From: Desulfuromusa sp.
Lineage (GTDB): Bacteria > Desulfobacterota > Desulfuromonadia > Desulfuromonadales > Geopsychrobacteraceae
Direction of reading: 5' to 3'
Assembly (NCBI GenBank): GCA_027858895.1
Contig: JAQIBX010000040.1
Span: 1-33,723 of the forward strand
DNA: 33,723 nt
The notes beneath the pieces are model-generated. The model did no database searches and was not told where the DNA came from. It was given only the letters and a program-made list of their open reading frames with translations. Shown piece after piece: positions 5,133 to 27,514 of this stretch. The stretch's first letter is position 1, and the number at the start of each line of letters is the position of its first letter. Made by a program: the position numbers and the translations under genes.

Positions 5133-5143
5133 GAGATTTACTT

Positions 5144-5869: not shown

Positions 5870-5881
5870 ACGGAGAGTTTG

Positions 5882-6421: not shown

Positions 6422-6442
6422 AGCTTACGAGCGGAGGATATC

Positions 6443-6628: not shown

Positions 6629-6649
6629 CAGCAAGAAGGAGAAACACCC

Positions 6650-7048: not shown

Positions 7049-7071
7049 TAGCAGATCAAGGAGCTTCAACA

Positions 7072-7611: not shown

Positions 7612-7638
7612 GGTAGAATTTCAGTAAGGAGCAAAGTT

Positions 7639-8001: not shown

Positions 8002-8013
8002 AGGAGAATATTT

Positions 8014-8505
8014 GTGCCGCATATTGATCCCACTGGATTAGAATTGACCGATCGGGTCATTCATATTAATCGTAACGCTAAAGTTGTCAAAGGTGGTCGT
8101 CGTTTTAGCTTTTCGGCTCTGGTCATCGTTGGTGATGGAAATGGTCATGTTGGCTACGGTCTCGGTAAGGCCAAAGAGGTTCCTGAAGCGATTCGCAAAG
8201 GGGTTGAAGTAGCCAAGAAGAGTCTAATAAAGGTCCCTATTCAAGAGGGCAAAACTATCCCATATGACGTCGTCGGAAAGTTTGGTGCGGGGAGAGTGCT
8301 CCTAAAACCAGCATCAGATGGTACAGGTGTCATCGCTGGTGGTGCTGTTCGTCCAATTTTGGAAGCTGTCGGGATTGGCAATGTCTTGACTAAGTGTCTG
8401 GGTACCAATAATCCACACAATGTAGTCAAGGCAACGATGAGTGCACTAAAAATGCTCAAAAGCCCCGATGAAATATATGCCCGTCGTGGCGTTACCAAAA
8501 GTTGA
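8014..8505 (+). CDS. rpsE: 30S ribosomal protein S5
   Basis: The 163-residue product has the S5 double-stranded-RNA-binding fold: [20 protein letters not shown], then [17 protein letters not shown]. It ends in the ribosomal S5 domain 2 pattern. S5 influences decoding accuracy. GTG at 8014 is the likely start, 12 bases after rplR and preceded by GAGGAGA (8001-8007). Confidence 0.97.
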
Positions 8506-8532
8506 GTATTTCGTACCTAGGAGAACAAAATA

Positions 8533-8712
8533 ATGGCGACGGAAGTGAAAGTCACCCTGAAAAAAAGTCCGATTGGTCGTAAAGCCTATTTTGCAAAAGT
8601 TCTAAAAGGCCTTGGCTTAAATCGTCTGCATCAGACAGTAACTTTGTCGGATACCCCAGAAATTCGTGGGATGATCCGAAAAGTTGAACATATGGTAATA
8701 GTTGAAGGCTGA
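8533..8712 (+). CDS. rpmD: 50S ribosomal protein L30
   Basis: This small gene encodes 59 residues, beginning ATEVKVTLKKSPIGRK and ending KVEHMVIVEG, the usual length and sequence of bacterial L30. It starts at ATG 8533 after TAGGAGA (8518-8524) and stops with TGA at 8710-8712. It occupies the conserved place between rpsE and rplO, which supports the call despite the short length. Confidence 0.95.
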   Translation: MATEVKVTLKKSPIGRKAYFAKVLKGLGLNRLHQTVTLSDTPEIRGMIRKVEHMVIVEG

Positions 8713-8734
8713 TAACGCTCTGAGGATAGTAACG

Positions 8735-9175
8735 ATGGATTTAAGTAATCTAAAACCGGTTCCCGGTTCTACAAAAAATAGAAAACGTATTGGCCGTGGC
8801 CCAGGTTCTGGAACTGGAAAACAATCTGGTAAGGGACACAAGGGTCAGAATGCGCGTAGTGGTGGTGGCGTAAAGCCTGGTTTTGAGGGTGGCCAAATGC
8901 CACTCCAACGAAGAGTTCCCAAGCGTGGCTTTGTCTCCAGAAATAAGACAGTTTATAACCTGGTCAACTTACGTGACCTAGAAGGTTTTGACTCTGGTAC
9001 AGTCGTTGATTTAGAGCAATATGGCAAGTCTGGTCTTGTTGTCGGCATCAAGGATGGCATCAAGATATTGGCAGATGGCGATTTGACCAAAGCACTAACT
9101 GTCTATGCACATAAGTTTAGTAAATCAGCTGCAGCAAAGATTGAAGCTGCCGGTGGTAAGGTTGAGGTTCTTTAG
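8735..9175 (+). CDS. rplO: 50S ribosomal protein L15
   Basis: The 146-residue protein begins DLSNLKPVPGSTKNRKRIGR and continues with the glycine-rich GSGTGKQSGKGHKGQNARSG stretch that defines L15. The frame is open to 8702, but that would overlap rpmD; ATG 8735 with TGAGGA (8721-8726) is preferred. secY begins 3 bases after its stop. Confidence 0.97.
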   Translation: MDLSNLKPVPGSTKNRKRIGRGPGSGTGKQSGKGHKGQNARSGGGVKPGFEGGQMPLQRRVPKRGFVSRNKTVYNLVNLRDLEGFDSGTVVDLEQYGKSGLVVGIKDGIKILADGDLTKALTVYAHKFSKSAAAKIEAAGGKVEVL

Positions 9176-9178
9176 GCT

Positions 9179-10486
9179 ATGTCGACGCTGCAGAACATTC
9201 TAGCTATCCCTGAGTTGAGGCGCAGAATTCTCTTTACTCTGGCAATGCTTGCAGTTTATCGGGTGGGGTGTCATGTCCCGACTCCCGGTATCGATGCACA
9301 GGTTTTGGCGAAATTTTTTGAAGGAACCGAAGGCACCTTGCTGGGTCTAGTCAGCTCTTTTACCGGTGGCGCTCTTCAGCAGATGGCCGTTTTCGCCCTT
9401 GGAATAATGCCTTACATCAGCGCCTCGATCATTTTACAACTTTTAACGGTTGTTTTTGAGCCGATTGAAAAGCTTTCCAAAGAGGGCGAGCAAGGACGCA
9501 AGAAAATCACCGAATATACACGCTATGGTACTATCGTCTTGGCGCTGATTCAGGGAACTGGTATTGCAATGGGTTTGCAGTCGATGGTTGGGCCTGCTGG
9601 CGAACCAGTTGTGCCTGATCCCGGCCTCGGCTTTATTCTGATGACCGTGATCACACTGACTGCGGGTACTGCCTTTATTATGTGGCTAGGTGAACAAATC
9701 ACTGAACGAGGTATCGGTAATGGTATTTCGTTGATCATCTTTGCTGGTATTGTAGCAGGCACACCTTCTGCGATTGTTAACTCGATTCGTTTGGTGCAAA
9801 CGGGCGCAATGTCTCCAACTATAGTTCTTTTCATTCTTGCTTTGATGCTGGCAACAGTCGGTGCTATTGTTTTTATGGAACGAGCTCAACGGCGCGTACC
9901 GATTCATTATGCGAAGCGGGTTATTGGCATGCGGAATGTTGGTGGGCAGGCCAGTCATCTCCCTTTGAAGATCAACATGAGCGGAGTTATTCCCCCTATT
10001 TTCGCCAGCTCAATTATGATGTTTCCAGCGACTATAGCAAACTTTATTGATGCCCCATGGGTAGATACGATGTCTGCTTATCTGTCGCCGACACATTGGG
10101 TCTACAACGTTTTTTATATTGCTTTTATTGTCTTCTTTTGCTACTTCTACACGGCTATAACGTTTAATCCTGTCAATGTCGCTGATAATATAAAAACTCA
10201 AGGCGGCTTTGTCCCGGGAATTCGTCCTGGCAAAGAAACGGCAAATTACTTGGACATGGTATTGAGTCGACTGACGTTTGTTGGTGCAATATATATATCA
10301 ATGGTCTGTGTATTGCCTACGATGTTAATTAGTCAGCTGAATGTTCCATTCTTCTTTGGTGGTACGTCGTTGCTGATTGTGGTTGGTGTAGGAATGGACA
10401 CAGCTTCACAAATTGAAGCTCACTTGATCTCCAGATCCTATGAAGGCTTTATGAAGGGCGTGACTCTTAAGGGTCGGCACGGCTAA
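9179..10486 (+). CDS. secY: Protein translocase subunit SecY
   Basis: The 435-residue protein is the usual SecY length and shows about ten hydrophobic segments. Family blocks include the RRRILFTLAMLAVYRVGCHVP first segment and, near the C-terminal half, IKTQGGFVPGIRPGKETANY, part of the cytosolic loop that contacts ribosome or SecA. SecY is the pore of the inner-membrane export channel with SecE and SecG. It lies within the spc operon, 3 bases after rplO, so its translation is probably coupled. Confidence 0.98.
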   Translation: MSTLQNILAIPELRRRILFTLAMLAVYRVGCHVPTPGIDAQVLAKFFEGTEGTLLGLVSSFTGGALQQMAVFALGIMPYISASIILQLLTVVFEPIEKLSKEGEQGRKKITEYTRYGTIVLALIQGTGIAMGLQSMVGPAGEPVVPDPGLGFILMTVITLTAGTAFIMWLGEQITERGIGNGISLIIFAGIVAGTPSAIVNSIRLVQTGAMSPTIVLFILALMLATVGAIVFMERAQRRVPIHYAKRVIGMRNVGGQASHLPLKINMSGVIPPIFASSIMMFPATIANFIDAPWVDTMSAYLSPTHWVYNVFYIAFIVFFCYFYTAITFNPVNVADNIKTQGGFVPGIRPGKETANYLDMVLSRLTFVGAIYISMVCVLPTMLISQLNVPFFFGGTSLLIVVGVGMDTASQIEAHLISRSYEGFMKGVTLKGRHG

Positions 10487-10499
10487 GATTGGTTGTCCA

Positions 10500-11147
10500 A
10501 TGAAGATTATTCTGCTTGGTCCGCCAGGGGCTGGTAAGGGTACGCAGGCAACGATGCTGATGAAAGAATACAGCATCCCGCAGATTTCAACAGGGGATAT
10601 GTTGCGCGCTGCTGTACATGATCAAACGCCCATGGGGGTCAAAGCAAAAGAATATATGGATGCAGGTGATCTGGTTCCTGATGATGTAGTCATTGGAATT
10701 GTGCGTGAGCGTCTGCAGGCTGATGACTGTAAAAATGGTTTTATCCTGGATGGTTTTCCGCGCACTCAGTTGCAGGCAGATGCTTTAAAGCAAGTCCTGG
10801 CTGAGGTGGACAAGCAGCTCGATTCGGTTATTTCTTTGCAAGTGGAAACTGAGGCTTTGGTCGGGCGCTTGACCGGTCGTCGTACATGTTCTGGCTGCGG
10901 TAAAGGTTTTCATCTGCAATATGAACCACCTGCTCTCGATGGAACTTGTAGCTCCTGTGGTGGTGTTCTGGTGCAGCGTGATGATGATTGTGAAGCAACA
11001 ATTCGCAACCGAATGCAGGTATATCATCAACAGACCGCGCCTCTGGAGGATTACTATCGAAGAGAAGGTTTATTGACGGTTATCGATGGAATGGGTGATA
11101 TTTCAGCTGTTCAGCGAGCAATAGTTTCAACACTTCAGGGTCATTAG
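10500..11147 (+). CDS. adk: Adenylate kinase, zinc-LID type
   Basis: The 215-residue product interconverts AMP and ATP with 2 ADP. The P-loop GPPGAGKGT spans residues 7-15, and the AMP-binding region contains DGFPRT near residue 84. The LID carries four cysteines at C130, C133, C150 and C153, the structural zinc site found in many Gram-positive and some deltaproteobacterial enzymes but not in E. coli. It is followed directly by map, with no spacer. Confidence 0.97.
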   Translation: MKIILLGPPGAGKGTQATMLMKEYSIPQISTGDMLRAAVHDQTPMGVKAKEYMDAGDLVPDDVVIGIVRERLQADDCKNGFILDGFPRTQLQADALKQVLAEVDKQLDSVISLQVETEALVGRLTGRRTCSGCGKGFHLQYEPPALDGTCSSCGGVLVQRDDDCEATIRNRMQVYHQQTAPLEDYYRREGLLTVIDGMGDISAVQRAIVSTLQGH

Positions 11148-11900
11148 TTGATTGTTATAAAGTCTCGCCCTGAGATTGAAAAGATGCGCAGAGCTGGCCG
11201 GATGGTAGCAGAGATTCTAGAGATGCTTCGCGAGAAGGTACGCCCTGGAGTAACAACGCTCCAATTAGATCAGTTAGCAGAGAAGCAATGTATTGAATGG
11301 AAGGCACGTCCGGCCTTCAAGGGTTATGGCGGCTTTCCTTTTACTATTTGTGCTTCGCCGAACAACCAGGTTGTGCACGGTTTTGCCAACCAAGACCCAT
11401 TACAGGAGGGAGATATAATCAGTATCGATTTTGGTCTGATTATAGATGGTTTTTTCGGCGACTCTGCTGTGACGATTCCGGTTGGTAAGATTGACGATGC
11501 AACTATACAACTACTGCAGGTAACACAAGATTCACTCAAGTGTGGTATAGCTGCTGCGCTGCCGGGCGGACATCTTTCAGATATTTCTAGTGCCATTCAG
11601 ACTTGTGTAGAAAAAGATGGTTTTAGTGTGGTTAGAGAGTTCGTTGGACATGGTATTGGTCGTCAGTTGCATGAAGAGCCTCAGATAGCAAATTATGGTG
11701 TGCAGGGGCGTGGTCCTAAATTGAAAGATGGGATGACCTTTGCGATTGAGCCGATGGTAAATGTCGGGCTGCCTGGGGTAAAGGTGCTGGAAGATGGTTG
11801 GACTGCTGTAACCATTGATGGCAAGCAGTCAGCTCATTTTGAACACACAATAGCAATTACTGAAAACGGGCCTGAAATACTGACCTGTCTTGATCGTTAA
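11148..11900 (+). CDS. map: Methionine aminopeptidase, type I
   Basis: The 250-residue enzyme removes the N-terminal methionine from new proteins. All five metal ligands are visible by comparison with the E. coli enzyme: D94, D105, H168, E201 and E232; H78 is the conserved active-site histidine. The start is an unusual TTG at 11148 that touches the adk stop codon, so reinitiation is likely. The N-terminus IVIKSRPEIEKMRRAGRM fits the family, supporting this start. Confidence 0.96.
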   Translation: MIVIKSRPEIEKMRRAGRMVAEILEMLREKVRPGVTTLQLDQLAEKQCIEWKARPAFKGYGGFPFTICASPNNQVVHGFANQDPLQEGDIISIDFGLIIDGFFGDSAVTIPVGKIDDATIQLLQVTQDSLKCGIAAALPGGHLSDISSAIQTCVEKDGFSVVREFVGHGIGRQLHEEPQIANYGVQGRGPKLKDGMTFAIEPMVNVGLPGVKVLEDGWTAVTIDGKQSAHFEHTIAITENGPEILTCLDR

Positions 11901-11958
11901 TTAATAATGTTGGATCTATCGCTGTTGATAGAGAAATTGATAGGAAAAGGATCTCAAA

Positions 11959-12072
11959 ATGAAGGTTAGAGCTTCGGTTAAGAAGATCTGTGATAAATGC
12001 AAAATTATCAAACGCAAAGGTGTTATCCGAATCATCTGCGAGAATCCCAAACACAAGCAAAGACAGGGATAA
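11959..12072 (+). CDS. rpmJ: 50S ribosomal protein L36, zinc type
   Basis: This 37-codon gene encodes [20 protein letters not shown] and ends [10 protein letters not shown]. The zinc ligands C11, C14, C27 and H32 of L36 are all present. It starts at ATG 11959 after AGGAAAAGGA (11942-11951) and ends with TAA at 12070. It lies between map and rpsM; infA, which often precedes it, is not here. Confidence 0.96.
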
Positions 12073-12089
12073 GGCCCTAGGAGGAAAAA

Positions 12090-12458
12090 TTGGCACGTAT
12101 TGCTGGAGTCGATTTACCGCGTAATAAACGCATTGAAGTTGCGATGACCTATATTTATGGGATTGGTCGCACTACGTCGCAAAATATCCTTTCACAGGCA
12201 GGTGTAGATTTTAATGCCCGTACTGATGATTTGACAGAGTCTGAACTTGTTAAGATTCGTGAACTTGTAGACAATGATTGCACTGTAGAGGGTGATTTGC
12301 GTCGCGAGCTGACAATGAATATCAAGCGATTGATGGATCTTGGTTGTTATCGTGGTTTGCGCCATCGTAAAGGTTTGCCAGTGCGCGGTCAGAATACCAA
12401 AAATAATTCACGGACCCGTAAGGGGCCGAAGAAAACTGTTGCCGGTAAGAAGAAATAA
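12090..12458 (+). CDS. rpsM: 30S ribosomal protein S13
   Basis: The 122-residue protein starts [20 protein letters not shown] and ends with the basic tail rich in [12 protein letters not shown], as in S13 of the 30S head, which bridges to the 50S subunit. The start is TTG at 12090 following a strong TAGGAGGA (12078-12085). It opens the alpha-operon part of the cluster. Confidence 0.97.
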
Positions 12459-12470
12459 GCGGAGTTATTC

Positions 12471-12866
12471 ATGGCTAAATCAGGAAAAAAAATCGTACGT
12501 AAAAAGGTAGTAAATAAAAATATAGCTAAAGGTGTTGTGCATATACAATCCACCTTTAACAACACCATTGTGACCATTTGCGATCCTGTTGGTAATGTTG
12601 TTGCATGGTCGACCGCCGGAGCAAAGGGCTTTAAGGGGTCACGGAAAAGTACTCCATTTGCAGCTCAGATAGCAGCAGAAGATGCGGCAGTCAAAGCTAT
12701 GGAGCACGGTATGCGTTCGGTTGAGGCCTGTGTAAAAGGTCCGGGTAGTGGTCGTGAATCAGCTTTGCGTGCGCTCTCATTGGCTGGTTTGACAGTTACT
12801 ATGATAAAGGACGTAACACCGATCCCCCATAATGGTTGTCGTCCGCCCAAGCGTCGTCGCGTTTAA
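12471..12866 (+). CDS. rpsK: 30S ribosomal protein S11
   Basis: The 131-residue protein contains [20 protein letters not shown] and ends [18 protein letters not shown], an unmistakable S11 C-terminus. S11 lies on the 30S platform near the Shine-Dalgarno helix. It starts with ATG 12 bases after rpsM. Confidence 0.98.
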
Positions 12867-12884
12867 GCATCGAGGAGGAAAAAG

Positions 12885-13514
12885 TTGTCTAGATACTCTG
12901 GTCCGGTCTGCCGTCAGTGCAGAAGAGAAAATACTAAACTGTTCCTGAAAGGGGACAGATGTTATACCGATAAGTGTGCTTTGGAACGTCGCAATTATGC
13001 TCCTGGTCAGCATGGTCAACGTCGTACCAAGGTTACAGACTACGGTACTCAGTTGCGTGAAAAACAAAAGGTAAAACGTACATATGGCTTGCAGGAAAAA
13101 CAATTCAGGCTCTATTTTTTCAAAGCAGATCGTATGAAGGGTGTTACGGGCGAGAATCTTTTGATGTTGCTTGAACGCCGCCTTGATAGTGCTATTTATC
13201 GTCTAGGCTTTTCAGTGTCTAGAGCTCAAGCGAGAACTTTGGTTCGCCATGGCCACTTTCAGGTTAATGGACAAAAAGTCAATATTCCTTCTTATTTAGT
13301 GCGTCCGAATGATGTTGTCACTTTGCGCGAGAAGAGTCGTGAGGTTGCTTGTATCAATGAATCTCTAGACAGTGTAATGCGTCGCGGATTACCATCTTGG
13401 GTTGAGCTTGAGCGTGATGCCTTTAAAGGTACCATTAAGACTTTACCGGTACGTAGTGAATTAACAACACCTGAGTTCCAAGAGCAGTTGATTGTTGAAC
13501 TTTACTCTAAGTAA
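12885..13514 (+). CDS. rpsD: 30S ribosomal protein S4, zinc type
   Basis: The 209-residue protein begins [19 protein letters not shown] and has four cysteines, C9, C12, C26 and C31, the zinc-binding form of the S4 N-terminus. The S4 RNA-binding domain follows (near residues 95-160, [20 protein letters not shown]). S4 nucleates 16S rRNA folding and in E. coli represses the alpha operon. The start is TTG at 12885 after CGAGGAGG (12871-12878). Confidence 0.97.
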
Positions 13515-13556
13515 TTTAGAACCTCATCAGGGTCTCTTGAGAGGGAGAATAAATAT

Positions 13557-14567
13557 ATGTACAAAAACTGGAGAGAACTGATCAAGCCGGTACGCTTGGA
13601 AGCAACTGAATTAAGCGTAACCTATGGTAAATTTGTTGCAGAACCATTTGAGCGCGGCTTTGGTACCACTCTTGGCAACTCATTGCGTAGAATACTTCTC
13701 TCATCTCTTCAGGGGGCTGCGATTACCTCTGTACGGATAAAAAATGTTCAGCACGAGTTCTCAAGCGTCGTCGGGGTCACTGAAGATGTTACTGATATTA
13801 TCCTCAATTTAAAGGGTGTTAAGGTACGTTTGCATGGCCATGATGACCGTAATGTTCGAATTGTGCAAAAGGGTGCTGGAGTCATCAAGGCAGGTGACAT
13901 TATTACCAACAACAATGTCGAGATTTTAAATCCTGACCTGTATATTGCGACTTGTGGAGATGAGACTGATCTTGAAATTGATATGACTGTTGCCATGGGC
14001 AAAGGTTATGTTTCTGCAGAAAAAAATCGGGATGATAGTGCTCCGGTTGGAACAATTCCGATCGACGCAATATTTTCTCCGATAGCAAAAGTCAATTATA
14101 CTGTTTCAAATGCGCGAGTGGGACAGATAACTGATTACGACAAACTGACACTGGAATTAAAAACTGATGGCAGTGTCAAACCAGAAGATGCGATTGCCTA
14201 TGCCGCTAAAATTTATAAGGAGCAGCTGCAGATCTTTATCAATTTTGATGAAACAGTTGAGCCCGTTTTAGCAGAAGAAAGCATTGAAAAAAATAAGATA
14301 AATGAAAATCTTTATCGTTCAGTCGAAGAACTGGAGCTATCGGTACGTAGTGCCAACTGTTTAAAAAATGCCCAAATTAATCTCATTGGTGAACTGGTAC
14401 AAAAGTCAGAAGCAGAGATGCTGAAAACCCAGAATTTTGGCAGGAAGTCACTGAATGAAATTAAGGATATCCTTGCTGAGATGGGTTTAGGCCTCGGCGT
14501 AAAATTGGATAGTTTTCCAGATCCTGATTATTTGAAATTGATTCAAAAGGGTCATGACGACGAATAG
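13557..14567 (+). CDS. rpoA: DNA-directed RNA polymerase alpha subunit
   Basis: The 336-residue protein shows both alpha domains. The N-terminal dimerisation domain contains [20 protein letters not shown], and the C-terminal domain (residues about 250-320) contains the [20 protein letters not shown] helix-hairpin region that binds promoter UP elements and activators. It lies between rpsD and rplQ, the universal position, and starts at ATG 13557 after GAGGGAGA (13540-13547). Confidence 0.98.
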
Positions 14568-14604
14568 TCTCCCTTTTATTGGTTTTTAGAAAGGAACAAA
14601 AGTA

Positions 14605-15015
14605 ATGCGCCACAATAAATCTGGCAGACGTCTAGGCCGCAAGCCCGATCATCGTCAACATATGATGCAAAACATGGTTATCTCTTTTTTTGAAAATGAG
14701 AGAATTACAACAACAGTGACCCGTGCTAAAGAACTGCGTAAGCTTGTAGAGAAAATGATAACGCTCGGCAAGCGAGGTGATATACATGCTCGCCGTCAGG
14801 CTCTGCGGGTGATGCATGATCAGAAGGTTGTTGCTAAATTATTTGAAATGATTGCGCCACGATACTCTGATCGACCTGGTGGTTTTACCCGAATCATTAG
14901 ACTTGAGAATCGTCAAGGCGACAATGCGCCTATGGCAATTTTCGAGCTAGTTGAGGAAGGCTATGAGCCAAAACAAGAAGTTCAAGAAACAACTGTTGAA
15001 GAAACGGTTGCATAA
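14605..15015 (+). CDS. rplQ: 50S ribosomal protein L17
   Basis: The 136-residue protein begins [20 protein letters not shown], the L17 signature. Compared with E. coli L17 it has an acidic tail (about the last 20 residues, rich in Glu, Gln and Val) that probably extends from the ribosome surface. It is the last gene of the super-operon and is followed by a strong terminator. Confidence 0.97.
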
Positions 15016-15084
15016 CAATCTAAAATCGACAAAAGATTACCTGTGGAAGAGACCGCTTAACATATTTTTTTCAGGTAGATGATT

Positions 15085-15127
15085 AACAGGGGACAAAGAA
15101 TTATTTCTTTGTCCCCTGTTTTTGTTT
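15085..15127 (+). terminator. Intrinsic terminator of the ribosomal super-operon
   Basis: The arms 15085-15100 and 15105-15120 are exact reverse complements of 16 bases, with a four-base loop (TTAT). The right arm runs into TTTGTTT. It lies 70 bases past the rplQ stop and is the only strong hairpin-plus-T structure I noticed in the first 15 kb. Confidence 0.92.
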
Positions 15128-15144
15128 GAAGAATTTGCTACACG

Positions 15145-15173
15145 TTGACTCCGTAAGTACTGAATGTTACTTT
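15145..15173 (+). promoter_or_regulatory. Possible sigma-70 promoter for mgtE
   Basis: TTGACT (15145-15150) is followed after 17 bases by TACTTT (15168-15173). The -35 matches consensus at five of six bases and the -10 at three. It lies between the upstream terminator and the mgtE start, where a promoter is expected. The weak -10 keeps confidence low. Confidence 0.35.
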
Positions 15174-15219
15174 CTAATTGTTTTTCACTTTTCCGTTCAA
15201 CGCAACCTAGGTGTGTCCT

Positions 15220-16578
15220 ATGCATGATCAAAAAATGCAGGTACTGCAGGGTACTGTTGGTAAGTTGCTCCGCCGCGGAGCTACTACGAACTTAAAGAAA
15301 GCTCTCGGCAAAATTCACCCGGCAGATATTGCCCATCTCTGCCGTTATTTTGAGCTTCATGAACAGAAAATTCTGCTTGAATTAACCCCTGATTTGGATC
15401 GTGTTGCCGATGTCTTGTCTGAGCTGGAGCCAGAATCGTGGCCGCTACTTGCTGAGCTTCTAGAGAAAGACTACCTCATCTCAATTGTGCATGAAATGGC
15501 GGATGACGATAGTGCTGTATTTATTAGAAGTCTTCCTGACGCATTGGCTGAGGAGATCTTGGCAGCGCTGCACGATGATCAGTCAGATGATGTTGAACAT
15601 TTGCTCGGCTATGATGAAGAGACAGCTGGCAGTATCATGTCAACTGACGTTTTTTCACTTGACCAGGATATTACAGTCAGGCAGGCGATTGAGTCTCTCC
15701 AAGGTTCAGAAGACTATGAAATGGCTTTCTATGTTTACGTTACCGATGAACATAACCACCTGGTTGGAGTGTTGTCGTTACGCCAATTGTTGACGGTCCC
15801 GCCAGGAACATGTTTACGCGATATCATGTCGACTAATGTAATGAGGGTCAGAACTGACATGGATCAGGAACAAGTTGCTGGCCTCGTTGCCAAATATAAT
15901 ATCCTGGCAATACCGGTTGTTGATGATCAAGGTAAATTGCTTGGATTGATAACGGTTGATGATGTTATCGATGTCATGCGTGATGAAGCTACAGAAGATA
16001 TTCTGCGGATGGCTGGTACCAGTGAAGAAGAACTGTTGTTGGGTTATAAATCGTTGCAAATTGCGCGTTTACGTCTTCCCTGGCTATTGGCGACCCTGGT
16101 TGGTGGCGTCGTGACTGGAACCTTGATGTGGTATTTCAGGGCAACATTGGAACAAGCCATTATGCTGATTTCATTTATTCCAGTTATCACTGGTATGGGT
16201 GGAAATGTCGGCGGACAGACATCAACTATTTTGGTGCGAGGTTTTGCCACTGGTAAAATTGACTTTTCTATGGTGCGACAGGTTTTTCTGAAAGAGTTGC
16301 GAGTAGGATTGATAATGGGGGTTGTCTGCGGACTGGTGATTGCCGGGGTAGCATCAGTCTGGCATCAGAACATCTACTTGGGTCTCGCGGTTGGAGTGGC
16401 GATGGTCACGGCCATTACGGTTGCTGCCTGTATGGGGGTCATTGTTACAGTATTTTTCAAAAAAATAGGGGTTGATCCGGCAATAGCATCGAGTCCTTTT
16501 GTGCAGACGGTCAATGACATCAGCGGAATCCTGATTTATTTCAGTACAGCAACCCTGTTCCTACCTTATTTAATATAA
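15220..16578 (+). CDS. mgtE: Magnesium transporter MgtE
   Basis: The 452-residue protein has the MgtE layout. An N-terminal helical Mg2+-sensing domain (about 1-125) contains HPADIAHL. A pair of CBS domains follows (about 130-255). The membrane domain (about 280-450) has the pore-region block PVITGMGGNVGGQTSTILVR and ends in hydrophobic helices. MgtE imports Mg2+ across the inner membrane and closes when cytosolic Mg2+ is high. ATG 15220 is preferred over GTG 15211; the ribosome site (CTAGGTG, 15207-15213) is weak. No Mg2+ riboswitch was evident in the short leader. Confidence 0.95.
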   Translation: MHDQKMQVLQGTVGKLLRRGATTNLKKALGKIHPADIAHLCRYFELHEQKILLELTPDLDRVADVLSELEPESWPLLAELLEKDYLISIVHEMADDDSAVFIRSLPDALAEEILAALHDDQSDDVEHLLGYDEETAGSIMSTDVFSLDQDITVRQAIESLQGSEDYEMAFYVYVTDEHNHLVGVLSLRQLLTVPPGTCLRDIMSTNVMRVRTDMDQEQVAGLVAKYNILAIPVVDDQGKLLGLITVDDVIDVMRDEATEDILRMAGTSEEELLLGYKSLQIARLRLPWLLATLVGGVVTGTLMWYFRATLEQAIMLISFIPVITGMGGNVGGQTSTILVRGFATGKIDFSMVRQVFLKELRVGLIMGVVCGLVIAGVASVWHQNIYLGLAVGVAMVTAITVAACMGVIVTVFFKKIGVDPAIASSPFVQTVNDISGILIYFSTATLFLPYLI

Positions 16579-16634
16579 ACTGTACGCTGCTGACGAGCTG
16601 GATTTACTTACCTTTTTGAGTTTGTAGAAAAGTC

Positions 16635-17378
16635 ATGGTGCATTTGCCACAACGTAGTGAGGCTTTGGTCTTACGCCGTACTAACTATGGAGAGTCTGAT
16701 ATAATTCTGACTCTTTTTACCGCCACTTATGGTCTGCAGAAAGGTTTTGCAAAGTCAGCGCGGAAAAGTCGTAAGCGCTTCGGAGCCGTTCTTGAACCAT
16801 TTACCCAAGCTGTTTTTCAGTGGAAGAAAGGGCGCGGGTCTTTCTGGTTGTTGCAGGAAGCTGAACTGGTCACCCTGCGTTTTGGATTGCGTAGTGATTT
16901 ACAGCGACTTGCTCTCGCAAGTTATGGTGTTGAATTAGTTGGTCTGTTGCTACAGGAGGGTGAACCTCAGCAACTCATTTATGAACTCCTCTGCAGTTTC
17001 CTTGACTATCTTGAACAAGGTGGCGATGAGTTCAGTGCCAGGCTGCTATTTGAGTTGCGGTTGATTTATCTGCTTGGATATATGCCTCACCTGCTTCATT
17101 GCAGTGAATGTCTGAAAATTTTTGCAAATGAACTGATCCGCTTTGATGCTAACCGTGGCGGCAGCCTTTGCCTCGATTGTGCGGGGTCTGGTGGCATATC
17201 TGTTGATCTTGGAACTATTGGGTCGTTGGCTCGCTCACTCAAGGTCGCACATAGGCAGTTTAGTGGGTTTTCCTTTGGCCCTAAAACGCTTCATCAGGCA
17301 GGTTTAATCCTCAGTCAGGTTTTGCAGCAAATTTTGCCGAGAGAACCAAGATCGCTTAAATTTCTCTCTCAACTGTGA
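16635..17378 (+). CDS. recO: DNA repair protein RecO
   Basis: The 247-residue protein has an N-terminal OB-fold (SEALVLRRTNYGESDIILTL) and a helical C-terminal domain with a zinc finger made by C156, C159, C179 and C182. RecO works with RecR, and RecF where present, to load RecA on SSB-coated single-stranded DNA. It lies 56 bases after mgtE with no terminator seen, so the two may be cotranscribed. The ribosome site upstream of 16635 is not strong. Confidence 0.93.
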   Translation: MVHLPQRSEALVLRRTNYGESDIILTLFTATYGLQKGFAKSARKSRKRFGAVLEPFTQAVFQWKKGRGSFWLLQEAELVTLRFGLRSDLQRLALASYGVELVGLLLQEGEPQQLIYELLCSFLDYLEQGGDEFSARLLFELRLIYLLGYMPHLLHCSECLKIFANELIRFDANRGGSLCLDCAGSGGISVDLGTIGSLARSLKVAHRQFSGFSFGPKTLHQAGLILSQVLQQILPREPRSLKFLSQL

Positions 17379-17390
17379 CCATTGCCAATC

Positions 17391-17419
17391 TTGACATCTT
17401 TAGGGGTGAAAGCTAAACT
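17391..17419 (+). promoter_or_regulatory. Likely sigma-70 promoter for glyQ-glyS
   Basis: A perfect -35 box TTGACA (17391-17396) is separated by 17 bases from TAAACT (17414-17419), which matches the -10 consensus at four of six positions. It lies just after recO and about 65 bases before the glyQ start. No T-box-like leader fits in that space. Confidence 0.65.
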
Positions 17420-17484
17420 CGCGCTTCCATTTCGTATTTATGTCCCCCGTTATTTATGACGGATTTATTTTTTTTGGAGGTCAT

Positions 17485-18354
17485 GTGACATTTCAGAACT
17501 TAATTCTTTCACTGCAAAACTTTTGGGCCGAGCAGGGCTGTATTATTCAGCAACCGTACGATATAGAAAAGGGGGCTGGGACTTTTAATCCGGCAACATT
17601 TTTGCGAGCGCTCGGGCCCGAGCCTTGGAATGTTGCTTACGTAGAGCCATCCCGGCGTCCTACAGATGGGCGTTACGGTGAAAACCCCAATCGTTTACAG
17701 CATTACTACCAGTTTCAGGTTCTCCTGAAACCATCTCCACAGAATATTCAGGACCTCTATCTCGATTCTCTCAAAAGCTTCGGCATCGATCCCCTAGCGC
17801 ACGACATCAGATTTGTTGAAGATGACTGGGAGTCACCGACCCTGGGAGCTTGGGGATTAGGTTGGGAGGTTTGGTTGGATGGGATGGAAATTACTCAATT
17901 TACCTATTTCCAACAGTGTGGTGGCTTTGAGCTGAAACCAATTCCGGGTGAAATTACTTATGGAATTGAACGTATTGCTATGTATCTGCAGGGGGTTGAC
18001 AGCGTTTACGATCTGGAGTGGGTGAACGGTATCAAGTATGGGGATGTTCATCATCAGACTGAAGTTGAATTTTCCCGTTATAATTTTGAAGAAGCTGATA
18101 CGGATATGCTTTTTCAACTTTTTGATATGTATGAAAAAGAATCACTCCAGTTGGTAGAGAAAGCTCTCGTCTTTCCCGCCTACGATTTTGTTTTAAAATG
18201 TTCGCATGCTTTTAATCTACTTGATGCTCGAAGTGCAATTTCGGTTACAGAACGGGCAAGCTATATTGGTAGGGTGCGCAATATGTCCAAACTTTGCGCT
18301 GCTGGGTATATTGCCCAGCGAGAAAAACTTGGTCACCCACTACTGAAAAAATAA
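17485..18354 (+). CDS. glyQ: Glycine--tRNA ligase alpha subunit
   Basis: The 289-residue product contains [20 protein letters not shown] and [20 protein letters not shown], signatures of the catalytic alpha chain of the bacterial alpha2beta2 glycyl-tRNA synthetase. The frame is open to 17440, but GTG at 17485, right after GGAGG (17476-17480), gives the family start [14 protein letters not shown]; the upstream residues are not family-like. The four-base gap between GGAGG and GTG is short. glyS follows 49 bases later. Confidence 0.95.
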
Positions 18355-18403
18355 CACACTAATTGTTGCCGCTTTTGTCGGTGCATACTAACTGGAGTGA
18401 TAC

Positions 18404-20467
18404 ATGTCTGCAGAACTGTTCCTCGAACTGGGGACTGAAGAAATCCCGGCAGGATTTATTCCGCTGGCTTTAACAGATATTCAACAGCAACTCAGCCAGG
18501 AATTAGAACGTGCGCGAATCTTATTCGGTGAAATACATACCTTTGCAACACCGAGAAGACTCGCGATCTCAATCAAGGATGTTGCTCGATTACAGCAACG
18601 GCAGGAACTGGAAGTTACCGGCCCCCCTGCTCGTATTGCTTTTGATCTTGATGGCAATCCAACTAAGGCCGCTGAAGGGTTTGCTCGAACCAATGGTGTT
18701 CCGGTTGGTGATTTGCAAACAATTGAGACCGGAAAAGGTAAATATCTGTTCTTCTCAAAGGTGATTGAAGGTGGAGAAACAAAAACGGAATTGCAACAAA
18801 TCCTGCCTCGTGTGATTGGTAATATTTCATTCAAAAAATCGATGCGCTGGAAGGACCTGGAGGTTCGTTTTGCCAGGCCAATGCACTGGATCGTTGCAGT
18901 TTATGACGGTAGCGTTGTCCCTTTTAGTTATGGCGATCTGCAAAGTGGTAACCTTTCCCGAGGCCATCGTTTTATGGCACCGGGAGAATTTTCCGTAGCT
19001 GGCGCAGACGATTATCTGTTTAAGGCTGAGCAGCAGCATGTGATCCCTGAAATTGGCAAGCGCCGACAGTTAATCGAAACTCAACTTAAACAATTGGCGC
19101 AGAATTTAGGCGGAGAAATCAATCAAGATGATGAACTGCTTGAAGAGGTCAGCTTTCTGGTTGAGTCTCCACAGGCACTGGCCGGAAGTATCGAAAGTCA
19201 ATTTTTGCAGTTGCCCCCGGAACTTTTGATTACCAGTATGCGTGAGCATCAGCGCTATTTCACTTTGGTCGATGAGCGGGGCAAGTTGCTGCCTAATTTT
19301 ATTACAATTGCCAATACCCACGCCAAAGACCCTCAAGTCGTTGTGGCGGGGAATGAACGAGTATTGAAAGCGCGTTTGTCTGATGCCATGTTTTTCTGGC
19401 GAGAGGATAAGAAACACAAGTTGGAAACGCGCCTGGAGGCGTTAAAAAAAGTTGTCTACCAGGCCAAATTAGGAACCAGCTTTGAGAAGATCGAACGTTT
19501 TACCGAGTTGGCTACCGGTCTAGCACAACAAATTGCCCCACAAACTGTTGAGATGACCAAGCGTGCTGCTACTCTTGCGAAATGTGATCTTGAGACCGGA
19601 ATGGTCTATGAATTCCCGGAGCTACAGGGGATCATGGGTCGTGAGTATGCCCTGCTGGAAGGGGAAGATCAGCGGGTTGCAACCGCCATCTATGAACATT
19701 ATCTGCCTATTCAAGCTGGTGGCGAACTCCCAAGTGATGATATTGGTGCTTTTGTCTCTCTGGCAGATAAAATAGATACTATTTGCGGCTGTTTCAGTGT
19801 CGGGTTGATCCCGACCGGAACCGCTGATCCATATGCTTTGCGTCGGAGTGCCATTGGTATTCTGTCCATTATTCTGGATCGTGGTTATGCCATCTCAATT
19901 CCCGACTTGGTATCCAGAAGTGTCCAGTTGTTAGAAGCCAAGAGGCAACGTGCTGCCGAAGAAGTTGTTGCCGATGTGGTTGAATTTATTCGTCTGCGAC
20001 TGGTCAATATGTTGTCTGGAAAAAACTATCCAGCAGATGTTATCGACGCTGTTCTGAGTGCTTCTTTTGTTGAGCCGAGTGATTCTTTAGAGCGAATAAA
20101 GGCTCTGTCTGCGCTGAAAAAGCAGGACGATTTTGAACCTCTGGCGGTTGCTTTTAAACGGGTTGGAAATATTATCAAAGACGGTCTGGATCAGCCTATC
20201 GATCAAAGCCTGCTAACCGATGATTGTGAAAAAATCCTCTTTGAACGTTTGCAGGAGGTTCGGAATAGCGTGGAAAAATTTATTTCTGGGCGTAACTATG
20301 TCCAGGCCCTGGAAGCAATTGCTGGATTACGTCAACCAGTTGATAATTTCTTTGATGGTGTCATGGTCATGGTGGATGATGCTGCGATCAAAAACAATCG
20401 CCTGGCGTTGTTAACCAGTATTGCCGGCTTGTTTAAGGGGATCGCCGATTTTCGTCGGATTGCTTGA
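18404..20467 (+). CDS. glyS: Glycine--tRNA ligase beta subunit
   Basis: The 687-residue protein starts SAELFLELGTEEIPAGFIP and contains SMRWKDLEVRFARPMHWIVA and TSMREHQRYFTLVDERGKLL, typical of the beta subunit. This chain recognises tRNA-Gly; the central region includes an HD-like fold and the C-terminus a DALR-type anticodon-binding domain. It starts at ATG 18404 after ACTGGAGTG (18390-18398). Length is normal. Confidence 0.97.
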   Translation: MSAELFLELGTEEIPAGFIPLALTDIQQQLSQELERARILFGEIHTFATPRRLAISIKDVARLQQRQELEVTGPPARIAFDLDGNPTKAAEGFARTNGVPVGDLQTIETGKGKYLFFSKVIEGGETKTELQQILPRVIGNISFKKSMRWKDLEVRFARPMHWIVAVYDGSVVPFSYGDLQSGNLSRGHRFMAPGEFSVAGADDYLFKAEQQHVIPEIGKRRQLIETQLKQLAQNLGGEINQDDELLEEVSFLVESPQALAGSIESQFLQLPPELLITSMREHQRYFTLVDERGKLLPNFITIANTHAKDPQVVVAGNERVLKARLSDAMFFWREDKKHKLETRLEALKKVVYQAKLGTSFEKIERFTELATGLAQQIAPQTVEMTKRAATLAKCDLETGMVYEFPELQGIMGREYALLEGEDQRVATAIYEHYLPIQAGGELPSDDIGAFVSLADKIDTICGCFSVGLIPTGTADPYALRRSAIGILSIILDRGYAISIPDLVSRSVQLLEAKRQRAAEEVVADVVEFIRLRLVNMLSGKNYPADVIDAVLSASFVEPSDSLERIKALSALKKQDDFEPLAVAFKRVGNIIKDGLDQPIDQSLLTDDCEKILFERLQEVRNSVEKFISGRNYVQALEAIAGLRQPVDNFFDGVMVMVDDAAIKNNRLALLTSIAGLFKGIADFRRIA

Positions 20468-23182: not shown

Positions 23183-23225
23183 AAACACAAAAGCCCCGCC
23201 AGAAGCTGGCGGGGCTTTTGTGTTT
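23183..23225. terminator. Bidirectional intrinsic terminator between ppdK and the EAL protein gene
   Basis: The arms 23183-23202 and 23206-23225 are perfectly complementary over 20 bases, with a three-base loop (AAG). The + strand continues into a run of T, and the A-rich left flank gives T residues when read on the - strand. It sits between convergent genes, so it probably ends both transcripts. Confidence 0.92.
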
Positions 23226-23231: not shown

Positions 23232-25409
23232 TCAATATTGATTTATTGTCCCATACTTATCAATAAAATCAATTAGTTGTTTTTTTTCAATCGGCCTGCT
23301 GTAATAAAAGCCCTGCGCAATGCCACAACCTTGTTGTAATAAGTATTCATGCTGTGCCAGGGTCTCAACTCCTTCAGCAATAAAGTCAAGTTGCAGCCCT
23401 TTAGACACATTAATGACAGCGGGAATAATTGTATCAATCATGTTGTCTGCAGTTATCTTTTGCATAAAAGATTGATCCAGTTTCAAAGTGTTCAATGGCA
23501 GATGATCCAGATAACTGAGAGAAGAGTAGCCAGTGCCGAAATCATCGATCGCAATTTTAATACCTGCACTCGTCAATTTTACAATATTTGAAAGCGTCCT
23601 GTTTATATTCTGAACCAGGATGTTTTCTGTCAGCTCCAATTCAATCTCTTTTGGATTGACTTCATAGGCATGAAGTTCTTCCAGAACGTATTCGGCAAAA
23701 TTACCCATTGCCAGCTGTAGGGCTGATACATTAATAGAAACTTGTATCTTCAGCCCTGTTTTATTCCAATTGTATATGTCTTGACAGACCTTTTTGAGGA
23801 CAATATCCCCGATATCGTTGATGAGTGAAGTTTCTTCCGCAATATCGATAAATTTTCCGGGCAGGATCAGTGTCCCGTCGGCTGACATGATTCTAACCAG
23901 CGCTTCAGCAGCATGAATCTTCCCTGAAATCAGGTCGATCTGTGGTTGATAGAAAACAATGAATCGATCATTTTTGATGGAATCTCTAATCAAGTTCTCG
24001 ACAAAGACTGTATGACTGTTTTTGTTTTTCAGTTTGTAACTGTAAAGGCAATGTGTTTTCCGGGTTTTTGTTTTTGCGCTGCACACGGCCGTGTCAGCAT
24101 TTCTTATCAGCTCTTCCATGGTTTCGCCATGATCTGGATAGACTGCAATACCGATACTTAGAGCAATATGAACATCCTGCCCATTATGTGTGAATGGGAG
24201 CGCGGCTTCAGAAATAATTTTCTTTGCGGCTGCAATCGCATCATCGGCGGAGTTTACATCCGACATGAGTAAAATAAACTCATCACTGCCCAGGCGGGCT
24301 AAAGTGTCTTCCTCGCGGGTGCATCTCCGTAGGGTTTCGGCAAGGCCCTTTAGCAGTTCATCGCCAAGGCTTTGCCCGTAGGTGTCGTTGATTAATTTGA
24401 AGCGGTTGATATCAATAAATAACAGTGCAAACTTTTCATTGTTTATCTTTGAATGATTAATCAAAGAGACTAAGTGTTCGTTCAATAATGTTCGGTTTGG
24501 TAATCCGGTCAGCAGGTCATGATTGTGCTGAAAACGGATGATTTCTTCCGCTTTCTTTTTCTCTGTAATATCTCTGGCTACCCCATAGGTGCCAATAAAA
24601 CTCTGTTTACGATTATAGTTTCTACCTAGTTTGAAGCCACCGGAAGTCTTTTTTTCTATATTGATTGCACGGACTTCTACGTATAGTAACGAACTTTTGT
24701 TTTTACATTGTAGCCTTAGTTCCTGACTTTTAGTGTCTTTTGGAAACTGTTTGTCATTGAAAAAAAGGTTGGCTCGCTCGATATCTTTAGCATAGACCAC
24801 GTCCTGATAGTGTTTTCCGATGATCTCTTTTCTGCTGTAGCCAAGCAATTTAATGGTTTTTTTGTTGATAAAAACAAAATAACCATCTCGATCAAGCATG
24901 TACAATAAATCGGGTGAATTGTGCACAATGAAGCGATGCAGTGCTTCCGATTCTTCCAATTTTTCAACCATCTCCTGGTTTTCTCGTTCAAGATGAATTT
25001 TTTCCAGAACATTTTTGATTGAAAATAGTAGTTCATCTGCTGAATAAGGTTTGCGGATGAAATCTTTTGCCCCATTTTTAAGAACACGGATCGCTTTTTT
25101 AATTTCAGATTCACCGCTGACAACGATAACATTTGTATTAATATTATTTCTGTTGATGTGATCAAGAACCGCTTCACCGTTCATATCCGGCATGTTGAGA
25201 TCAAGAAGGATCAGTTCATATTTATTGTGTTGGAGCTCTGCAATCGCGGCGTATCCGCCAGAGACTGAATGCGCATTCAGGCCGTTTAGTGAAAGCACCC
25301 CCTTGATACTTTTTGCCACTGCCAGATCATCGTCAACAATCAGTATTTTTACATTGCTCATTGGCGAAGCACTGTTCTTGACTTTATTGAAATGACCTAA
25401 GTCTATCAT
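23232..25409 (-). CDS. Response regulator with PAS, GGDEF and EAL domains (cyclic di-GMP turnover)
   Basis: The 725-residue protein has four domains. A receiver domain (about 20-135) has phospho-acceptor D70 and K120. A PAS domain spans about 155-285. A GGDEF domain spans about 295-460. An EAL domain spans about 470-720. The EAL domain keeps E502-A503-L504, the ELTEN block and DDFGTGYSS (622-630), so it is likely an active cyclic-di-GMP phosphodiesterase. The GGDEF signature is changed to GSDEF (374-378) but the upstream RXXD inhibitory site (R365-D368) is kept; cyclase activity is uncertain. Its ATG overlaps the kinase gene stop (ATGA), so the kinase is the likely partner. A start at residue 17 (25361) is a possible alternative. 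Confidence 0.93.
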   Translation of the reverse strand: MIDLGHFNKVKNSASPMSNVKILIVDDDLAVAKSIKGVLSLNGLNAHSVSGGYAAIAELQHNKYELILLDLNMPDMNGEAVLDHINRNNINTNVIVVSGESEIKKAIRVLKNGAKDFIRKPYSADELLFSIKNVLEKIHLERENQEMVEKLEESEALHRFIVHNSPDLLYMLDRDGYFVFINKKTIKLLGYSRKEIIGKHYQDVVYAKDIERANLFFNDKQFPKDTKSQELRLQCKNKSSLLYVEVRAINIEKKTSGGFKLGRNYNRKQSFIGTYGVARDITEKKKAEEIIRFQHNHDLLTGLPNRTLLNEHLVSLINHSKINNEKFALLFIDINRFKLINDTYGQSLGDELLKGLAETLRRCTREEDTLARLGSDEFILLMSDVNSADDAIAAAKKIISEAALPFTHNGQDVHIALSIGIAVYPDHGETMEELIRNADTAVCSAKTKTRKTHCLYSYKLKNKNSHTVFVENLIRDSIKNDRFIVFYQPQIDLISGKIHAAEALVRIMSADGTLILPGKFIDIAEETSLINDIGDIVLKKVCQDIYNWNKTGLKIQVSINVSALQLAMGNFAEYVLEELHAYEVNPKEIELELTENILVQNINRTLSNIVKLTSAGIKIAIDDFGTGYSSLSYLDHLPLNTLKLDQSFMQKITADNMIDTIIPAVINVSKGLQLDFIAEGVETLAQHEYLLQQGCGIAQGFYYSRPIEKKQLIDFIDKYGTINQY

Positions 25410-27514
25410 TTCAACTCAATCTCACTCTCTTCTTGTTTTCGGGGGATAAGAATTTTAAATTCAGTACCTTGGCCTTGGCTGGAATAACAAGAGATGTTGC
25501 CTGAAATTTCCTGAGCTAACGAATTAACAATGGCCAGCCCCAAACCGGAATGCCCCTCTTTCGTACTAGTAACCGGTTTGAACAGGTTTTTTAAAATATC
25601 GGCATCAATTCCAGGACCATTATCTTGAATTGAAATTTCGACGTATTGTTTGCTATTTTGATAAACATTGTCTCTGCTGGTGATCTTAATTGTGCCACTT
25701 TCCTGCATCGCTTCAACGCTATTTTTTATGAGGTTGATCAGTATCTGCTTCAACTTATCTTTGGGACAACAGAGAATTGGAATTTTTTTATCCAAGAGTA
25801 AGGTTGATTTTACCTGGTTGGTTTTGTAGAGAGAGCCGTTAAACAGGGTATCCAACTCGGTAAGTAGTTTATTGATATCAACCTGTTTATATTTTGTTTT
25901 GGTCGGAGCTTCAGGATCTTTTGCTCTTAGTAGAATACTGCCAACCCGTTCAATTTCTTCACTGATAAATTTAATTTCTTCCTGAGCCGAATGGTCGCTG
26001 TCAATCTTTTTGCCCAGCATGTAGAGATAGTTATTGATGATAGTCAGTGGGTTGCTGACTTCGTGGGCAACTTTTTTGAAATCAACGATGGTCATGCCGA
26101 CCGCTTGAGATGTGTCCTGATTCAGTGAAAAATACTTTCGAGCTATTTCACTGCTCAGTAATTTTAATAATGCTGCTTTATTTTTAAGAAATGGCCATTC
26201 CTGTTCAGTTGTTCCGAGTGCAAGAACACCAAGACCGGTTCCAGTGTGATAAACGGGTAGAAAATAGGCAGCTTCAGCGCCAAGCAGCCTGATAACCTGT
26301 TTATCCGCTATGGAACAGCTTTCCTTCAAGGAAATAAAGCTATTTTTTTCGTTAAATGCCTTGACCAGTAAACTGTTTTTGTCCTCGGTTTTAAATTCAA
26401 TTTCATCCAGTTGATTAATTTCCAGGTCATTGATTGCTGAGAGTGTCGTCTGATTGTCATCTACTTTAAAAAAGAACAGCTGGTTCAGGTTGAAGATGGC
26501 ATTGAAATTGGTTCTAATCTCTTTGGTAAATTCCACTAGCTCAACTTGTTCGCTTTTTCCAATCGTAGCGCTTAATGCAATAGCTTCGACCTTTTCTGCC
26601 AGTTTTTTTCTGCTGGTTTCATGCTGGGTTGTATCGAAGGTTTTTGCCTCATTCTCCTCCAAATAAAAACGACCGCTGAAACCAAGATCAGTGATCATCT
26701 GCTTGCTTTTTTCTGCAGCCAGGGTGAGGCAATCCAGAATGGTGTCTTCAGTTATGTCAAAAAGAAGCCCTGCTTTTTCTAGGAAGAGGTTACTGTCGCG
26801 GGCGCTATTTTTTGAACTAAGGGGGCTGGCAACGGCAAGAATTTTCAATAAGATTGGAGAACTGCTCAGTTCCTCTGCTGGTGCATGCTGAAAGTTTATC
26901 GCATCGGCAATAAAAGAATCGAGCTCCCAACTTTCAACCAATGCGGCACCTAATTCACAGTGATTGACCTGTAAATGTTCTTGTTCAAGAAAGAGAAATT
27001 CTTCTGTCTCACTATAGTAACGGTCCAGCAGGGGGAGGTAACTGCTTTCACGGTTTAGTAGCAGTAGCAGCATGCCGACTTGATGGAGCAGTCCGGCAAG
27101 AAATGCTTCGCCGGGTTTTTCATATCCGACCAGTTTGGCGATTCGTTCTGCCAGGTTGGCGCAAATCAGGGCGCGTAGCCAAATAAACTGGACATGTCTG
27201 TTGAAGTCTTTAGTGAAATTTGCAAAAAATTGCTGTATAGCACAGGTCGTAACTATGTTTCTGACGTTGGTCATCCCTAGAATAATTAACATTCTGCGGA
27301 TATCGGCTATTTTATTCCATTGCCGATAGGCTGGTGAGTTTGCAACTTGCAATATCTTAGCGGTTAAACTGACATCCTTTTTGATTGCTGTTGAAAACAT
27401 TTCAAAATTAGCATTGTTATTGTGACACAAGTCTAGTAGCTCAACCAGAAGGCTTGGCTCAGAAGGCAAGTTGTCAACCGAATAGCTTTTATTTTTAAGA
27501 TAGATACGCTGCAT
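25406..27514 (-). CDS. HDOD-GAF-type sensor histidine kinase
   Basis: The 702-residue protein combines an N-terminal HDOD domain (about 5-215), a GAF-like region (about 318-463) and a histidine kinase core. The H-box reads FKKVAHEVSNPL with H484, followed by the N-box LINLIKNSVEAM, the DNGPGID G1 box and GHSGLGLAIVNSL G2 box, so the kinase looks intact. The HDOD core has LLHQVG where HD phosphohydrolases have an HD pair, so it is probably a non-catalytic interaction or sensing domain. No membrane segment is seen, suggesting a cytosolic sensor. The frame opens at a TTG (27550), but ATG 27514 has AAAGGA (27526-27531, read on the minus strand) upstream. It is coupled to the downstream REC-PAS-GGDEF-EAL gene. 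Confidence 0.9.
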   Translation of the reverse strand: MQRIYLKNKSYSVDNLPSEPSLLVELLDLCHNNNANFEMFSTAIKKDVSLTAKILQVANSPAYRQWNKIADIRRMLIILGMTNVRNIVTTCAIQQFFANFTKDFNRHVQFIWLRALICANLAERIAKLVGYEKPGEAFLAGLLHQVGMLLLLLNRESSYLPLLDRYYSETEEFLFLEQEHLQVNHCELGAALVESWELDSFIADAINFQHAPAEELSSSPILLKILAVASPLSSKNSARDSNLFLEKAGLLFDITEDTILDCLTLAAEKSKQMITDLGFSGRFYLEENEAKTFDTTQHETSRKKLAEKVEAIALSATIGKSEQVELVEFTKEIRTNFNAIFNLNQLFFFKVDDNQTTLSAINDLEINQLDEIEFKTEDKNSLLVKAFNEKNSFISLKESCSIADKQVIRLLGAEAAYFLPVYHTGTGLGVLALGTTEQEWPFLKNKAALLKLLSSEIARKYFSLNQDTSQAVGMTIVDFKKVAHEVSNPLTIINNYLYMLGKKIDSDHSAQEEIKFISEEIERVGSILLRAKDPEAPTKTKYKQVDINKLLTELDTLFNGSLYKTNQVKSTLLLDKKIPILCCPKDKLKQILINLIKNSVEAMQESGTIKITSRDNVYQNSKQYVEISIQDNGPGIDADILKNLFKPVTSTKEGHSGLGLAIVNSLAQEISGNISCYSSQGQGTEFKILIPRKQEESEIELK

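Follow-up and report, generated by a model that had tools for sequence, protein, structure and literature searches.

What does an HDOD domain do inside a histidine kinase, and is the kinase that carries it wired to the cyclic di-GMP (c-di-GMP) enzyme encoded beside it? The 33,723-nucleotide stretch of Desulfuromusa sp. analysed here (contig JAQIBX010000040.1; the window) raises this question through two adjoining genes on the minus strand, one for an HDOD-GAF-histidine kinase of 702 residues (25406..27514) and one for a response regulator of 725 residues composed of receiver (REC), PAS, GGDEF and EAL domains (23232..25409). Our analysis makes it quite probable that the two proteins form a cognate two-component system controlling the GGDEF-EAL output, with net c-di-GMP hydrolysis likely in the window's organism. 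We observed the anatomy of the pair, the conservation of its residues, its adjacency and its shared descent; from these we infer phosphotransfer, the direction of the output and the nature of the signal.

Both open reading frames given in a preliminary description of this locus were confirmed by their translations and Pfam matches. So was its claim that the kinase stop overlaps the regulator start, the two sharing the four bases ATGA (25406..25409, minus strand), and the same arrangement is seen in 9 of the 11 ortholog loci that were fetched from the genus. Since the genes overlap, the regulator would probably be made by coupled translation. The longest reading frame of the kinase extends to a TTG at 27550; the ATG at 27514 is the likelier start because most close relatives begin there.

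Adjacency of the two genes was followed through related genomes. Among 136 genomes of the order, 53 gave a match at E <=1e-30 in a protein search. The 40 loci fetched were the 41 best places except the window, G076 and G082, together with two loci from a paralogue family of 28% identity. The regulator adjoins the kinase directly downstream and on the same strand in 39 of these 40; in the fortieth (L050) the kinase is cut by a contig end, and its other half, L068, is counted among the 39 and carries the regulator. Also among the 39 are two loci with a broken regulator frame (L046, L048) and one whose regulator runs off the contig (L033). Conserved separation of the genes in close relatives, named earlier as a result that would contradict the pair, was not seen: the genes adjoin in all 11 ortholog loci fetched from the genus, one with its regulator cut by a contig end, and the same-genus genome G061, which holds only a distant copy, has it adjacent too (L058). 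Within the window's family, ortholog copies (L031-L055 and L068, within contig reach) are followed by ppdK and usually preceded by a hydrolase gene. More distant copies of the pair sit elsewhere, and the pair thus outlasts its neighbourhood.

The comparison was extended to the class by searching 248 of its genomes with a profile; 80 gave a match at 1e-60. Twenty loci were picked from the list; those of G130, G047 and G048 belong to the same order or family as the window, and L173 and L174 apparently duplicate L117 and L114. The regulator is adjacent in 18 of the 20, one being cut by a contig end (L168) and two being masked by over-long upstream starts (L162, L166). A wider scan of genome contigs from named records supplied a further sample, the best 80 of 540 confirmed places, which for this reason leans to close kin. 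HDOD and kinase hits occur together in 60 of the 80, and downstream of these 60 lie a GGDEF-EAL regulator (40), a receiver-histidine kinase-receiver protein (REC-HK-REC; 12), another receiver on a short contig (1) or no adjacent receiver (7). Six of the 40 pairs were already among the order loci (L071-L076, five identical and L072 a near-copy), and any partner overlapping the kinase by >250 bases would be missed in the count over all 80. The 20 kinases without an HDOD hit include two with a GGDEF-EAL regulator (L127, L128, both of which match the GAF model), and this control has flaws, since at least L120 and L123 look like truncated or disrupted members. Among the hosts of the GGDEF-EAL form are Desulfuromonadales, Oxalobacteraceae (Massilia, Duganella, Janthinobacterium), Marinobacter, Thioalkalivibrio and Candidatus Competibacter, and the pairing spans two phyla, labelled Thermodesulfobacteriota and Pseudomonadota. 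The adjacency of the pair is not accidental.

Is the association also old? In a tree of 91 HDOD-kinases, a single branch with a support of 99 separates the 71 rows that have a GGDEF-EAL partner from the rest. In a larger tree of 111 kinases (109 of them different), with L162 labelled by hand, the 89 rows with such a partner require three changes, and a single one once the class loci L157 and L169 are set aside, compared with a mean of 21 for shuffled labels (computed before one label correction). This history is explained most simply by one association and two departures from it afterwards. Partner type scored in three states requires 7 changes on the kinase tree versus a shuffled mean of 22.3, the shuffle again preceding one label correction. 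These trees exclude kinases without an HDOD hit, the partner-bearing L127 and L128 among them, and they were built with FastTree, which is prone to joining long branches; several of their rows were flagged as long. The distance matrices of kinase and regulator correlate with an r of 0.81, the largest of 1000 permutations reaching 0.15; the two trees have 45 of 68 splits in common, and both recover the ortholog clade (24 members) and the paralogue clade (7 members) as single groups. The two genes have been inherited together over a long time.

Having established the pair, we examined the kinase domain by domain. The HDOD domain (residues 16-212; 26879..27469, minus strand) scores 163.2 bits against PF08668, above the curated cut-off of 22.9, and residues 4-279 of the full kinase model (pLDDT, the predicted local distance difference test, 75; pTM, the predicted template modelling score, 0.41) match the Geobacter HDOD structure 3hc1 with a Z of 18.8 over 266 aligned residues at a root-mean-square deviation of 5.0. 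At the other end of the protein, the HATPase_c catalytic domain (residues 586-693; 25436..25759, minus strand) matches PF02518 with 83.5 bits. The dimerization and histidine phosphotransfer (DHp) helices preceding it, placed at about residues 476-535 (25910..26089, minus strand) by histidine conservation and the modelled helices, contain H484 (26063-26065). The Pfam HisKA model gives 21.1 bits here, below its cut-off of 26.9, and all 29 aligned kinases match it at E 0.1; residues 477-695 of the model match solved kinase domains with Z up to 22.3. The kinase had been described as soluble-looking, in agreement with our finding of a single borderline hydrophobic stretch, located inside HDOD.

The GAF domain placed between HDOD and kinase core (about residues 326-466; 26117..26539, minus strand) stands on different ground. 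No Pfam GAF model matched the window kinase at E 0.001 or 0.1, and among the aligned kinases any single GAF model matches at most 7 of 29 at E 0.1. We folded and searched this region separately, the whole-kinase fold comparison being swamped by kinase cores. When residues 318-472 were modelled alone, the pLDDT was 89. Foldseek gave 20 matches at E <=0.001, the majority annotated as GAF domains or as proteins that contain one, including 5w10 (Lcd1 GAF), 3o5y and others with E of 4e-5 to 1e-3; the top-ranked entry, 3oov (3e-5), is titled merely as part of a chemotaxis protein. Hence, of the HDOD-GAF-histidine kinase architecture proposed earlier, HDOD and the HATPase_c part of the kinase core are borne out by Pfam, whereas the GAF assignment is carried by the predicted fold and not by Pfam.

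Residue conservation was evaluated over 71 pairs, a set omitting L033, L046, L048, L050 and L068, each with a cut or broken gene, as well as five identical rows. The phospho-acceptor residues had been numbered correctly as H484 of the kinase and D70 of the regulator, and the His and the Asp are present in 71/71 pairs. The same holds for further residues of the H-E-x-x-N-P, N and G boxes of a HisKA kinase, namely P489, N594, N598, D631 and G635, and for E485, with N488, E592, G633, G657 and G659 in 70/71. The sequence E-x-x-N after the phospho-acceptor His is the phosphatase motif of HisKA kinases and, because it follows H484, the kinase may also be able to strip phosphate from its partner.

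What, then, does the HDOD domain contribute? The first His of its HD pair occurs in 61 of the 71 pairs and the Asp in only 8, being lost in 63; the window reads H144-Q145 and so lacks the His-Asp metal pair of HD-type phosphohydrolases. Because the Asp is lost, the domain probably serves for sensing or docking. It is very improbable that HDOD remains an active phosphohydrolase whose product or substrate the kinase senses. Retention of the first His would fit such an activity, as would DVU0330, which keeps both HD residues and is weakly active on a model substrate according to passages of PMC4114195; set against this are the missing Asp, Q145 of the window included, and the statements in the same passages that DVU0330 lacks activity on c-di-GMP and that GsmR acts neither as a phosphatase nor as a phosphodiesterase. 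A more speculative idea, which we hold to be rather unlikely, is that HDOD acts as a c-di-GMP receptor within the histidine kinase and senses the very messenger that the partner destroys, a self-contained homeostat in which hydrolysis is turned on at high c-di-GMP. An HDOD that had lost catalysis and kept its ligand would explain why an old HDOD-kinase lineage has stayed beside a c-di-GMP enzyme, and the HDOD protein SadB binds c-di-GMP, with the binding domain described as unsettled in passages of PMC6543031. HDOD is a bacterial domain whose function is termed unknown, or its mechanism not established, in the literature (PMC11004494, PMC6543031). Separately, Cys118 of HDOD was considered as a redox site, being invariant in a 29-row alignment; it was rejected, as Cys occupies this position in 41 of the 71 pairs.

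The regulator shows a complete set of domains, each above its Pfam cut-off and all on the minus strand. Its REC domain (residues 22-129; 25023..25346; PF00072, 92.5 bits) holds D70 at 25200-25202, and D26, D27, D70, S98 and K120, comprising the acidic pocket, the phospho-Asp and the Lys, occur in 71/71 pairs. A PAS domain follows (about residues 159-261; 24627..24935; PF13426, PF00989), then a GGDEF domain (residues 296-451; 24057..24524; PF00990, 163.5 bits) and an EAL domain (residues 474-706; 23292..23990; PF00563, 210.5 bits). All catalytic residues checked in the EAL domain are present, and they are nearly fixed across the pairs: E502, R506, N560, E595, D622, K643 and Q699 in 71/71, D623 in 70/71 and E679 in 69/71. 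The cyclase motif is different. The window reads GSDEF (24276-24290, minus strand) and hence misses the diguanylate cyclase motif GG[DE]EF, which is intact as GGDEF in 54 of the 71 pairs; Ser replaces the second Gly in 14 rows, the window included, and the first Gly in 3. Eleven of these 14 rows are from the window's genus (two of them near-copies), the others being L063, L064 and L089, and L037 of the same genus retains GGDEF. GSDEF is thus largely confined to the window's genus with the EAL residues unchanged, as if the cyclase motif had decayed recently.

In the window's organism, the output of the regulator is likely net c-di-GMP breakdown, given intact EAL residues next to GSDEF. A precedent is DVU0408 of Desulfovibrio vulgaris, described in passages of PMC4114195 as a response regulator that combines EAL with a degenerate GGDEF, whose phosphodiesterase is helped by guanosine triphosphate (GTP) and whose cyclase activity is not detectable; together with a recent motif change that left EAL untouched, it argues for phosphodiesterase output. 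Could the regulator instead be a bifunctional switch, in which the pair is real, GSDEF is still active and phosphorylation toggles between c-di-GMP synthesis and breakdown? We consider this possible yet clearly the less favoured reading. The prevalence of intact GGDEF among the pairs speaks for it, as do several features around the motif: the RxxD inhibitory site, five residues ahead, is kept in the window as R365-E-E-D368, with its Arg in 63 of the 71 pairs, and N341, D350 and D333 are present in 71/71, window included. N341 and D350 are GTP contacts, and D333 is a metal ligand. Against a switch stand the Ser of the window and 13 further rows, concentrated in its own genus with fixed EAL residues, and the statement in passages of PMC4114195 that an active EAL next to an inactive GGDEF is common. 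We also considered a Hypr-type GGDEF making cyclic GMP-AMP (cGAMP), a type judged from the residue in place of the base-contact Asp; there was no sign of it, D350 being kept in 71/71. Net breakdown of c-di-GMP therefore remains our reading for the window copy, and since GGDEF is intact in most pairs it is not extendable to the whole family, in which relatives with intact GGDEF may be bifunctional. The preliminary description is partly supported: the pair is old and inherited together, and breakdown is favoured for the window copy, while its closed circuit from HDOD/GAF sensing to c-di-GMP breakdown is a proposal.

Taken as a signalling route, the system would run as follows. A cytoplasmic kinase would read an internal condition via HDOD, its hydrolase pair lost, and GAF; binding of the signal would set the kinase/phosphatase balance at H484, and phosphate would move from H484 to D70 of the regulator. 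Phosphorylation of D70 would then govern the C-terminal GGDEF-EAL unit, with PAS and GGDEF relaying to EAL and c-di-GMP dropping. The GSDEF-type GGDEF domain would play a regulatory part by binding GTP or c-di-GMP.

Several observations weigh against this reading. The same-genus genome G051 gave no kinase match at 1e-30. Among the class loci, L157 pairs its kinase with REC-HK-REC and L169 has no adjacent regulator. Some members of the family, with the cyclase motif intact, may make c-di-GMP. The agreement of the two trees is owed in part to common species history. Finally, in a DHp-REC covariation analysis the contact positions of solved complexes were not singled out, the best ranking 135 of 4559 at an effective depth of 51. 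This last result would also suit a common operon with separate signal paths, the kinase mainly serving another regulator and the phosphodiesterase being phosphorylated elsewhere, and so would the 35 kinase matches of all kinds in the window's own genome and the related HDOD-kinases found beside REC-HK-REC or without an adjacent receiver, because of which partners evidently can change. We nevertheless regard separate paths as improbable: the three-state partner type tracks the kinase tree, and the ortholog and paralogue clades of the kinase tree have their counterparts in the regulator tree. A cognate kinase and regulator is thus the reading that we carry forward.

Partner change has its own record. 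REC-HK-REC proteins accompany the HDOD-kinases of L080, L081, L096, L104, L106, L107, L113, L115, L116, L124, L126, L134 and L157, many of them from Desulfobulbaceae or Desulfosarcinaceae. For 10 of 12 of these proteins, the first REC gave its higher score against the RECs of GGDEF-EAL partners (35 rows) and not against background RECs (39 rows), a result obtained after dropping 15 background rows from duplicate or partner loci, with which the background won most of the 12; that this REC is a part in common with the GGDEF-EAL partners is suggestive only. In Desulfobacula-like records (L084, L086, L102, L120, L123) the gene after that of a related kinase encodes a protein of 320-358 residues, and a ParA/MinD-like ATPase comes next, the latter label coming from Pfam on L084. 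Pfam on three of the intervening proteins gave sub-threshold MshEN matches in L123 (2e-4) and L086 (0.006) and none in L084, a hint of a further connection to c-di-GMP or motility. The window's own genome encodes a second, paralogous HDOD-kinase (contig C68, 3000-4091; L151), 55% identical to the L069 copy and matched over residues 6-369 of 697 only. L147, a record titled Desulfovibrionaceae, has a single frame of 978 residues that fuses HDOD with the kinase core and REC, a hybrid form of the kinase.

Around the pair, a strong hairpin with a 20-pair stem (23183..23225, from a plus-strand terminator scan) separates the convergent regulator and ppdK; it is probably a terminator common to both, its minus-strand use being deduced. 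Upstream, the kinase start lies 179 bases from a gene with weak, below-cut-off oxidoreductase matches, beyond which lies a fumarylacetoacetate hydrolase-family gene. Positions 477-20467 of the window hold ordinary content: ribosomal protein genes, secY, adk, rpoA, then mgtE, glyQ and glyS.

The pair could help to show what the HDOD domain does, as it places one HDOD-kinase beside one c-di-GMP enzyme and thereby gives HDOD a defined readout. Cultured hosts are at hand in Marinobacter daepoensis and Massilia aurea, with the paralogous form in Desulfuromusa kysingii, and the varied neighbours of the kinase lineage, REC-HK-REC and possibly MshEN, make HDOD sensing testable in several groups.

How does the pair compare with known systems? 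Within the open-licence PubMed Central (PMC) literature, no paper was found that describes a c-di-GMP regulator paired with an HDOD-kinase. DVU0408 (gene of 2148 bp, phosphodiesterase active) resembles the window regulator in its domain make-up, joining a receiver to EAL and a degenerate GGDEF; its GGDEF change is F to Y, whereas here the second G is changed to S, and the passages on it in PMC4114195 name no HDOD-kinase partner. SadB of Pseudomonas fluorescens is likewise an HDOD protein wired to c-di-GMP but has a YbaK-HDOD architecture and no kinase, as far as passages of PMC6543031 describe it. ZpdA and CdgJ of Vibrio cholerae, EAL-HDOD phosphodiesterases, also join HDOD with an EAL enzyme, yet each is one fused protein with no phosphorelay in the passages of PMC12607878. 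GsmR (passages of PMC4114195) and MmoQ (structures 3ljx, 3p3q) place HDOD in two-component signalling, in the regulator rather than, as here, in the kinase. AtoS, ZraS and NtrB-type kinases are among the best curated or solved-structure matches of the window kinase core (ZraS 9jfj), but they have other sensor domains, the window's partner is not a sigma-54 activator, and the AtoS model NF008468 gives 151.5 bits, far under its equivalog cut-off of 646. Since c-di-GMP two-component systems are already well known, the pair is a widespread variant of them, with HDOD as the kinase input and the pairing kept across two phyla.

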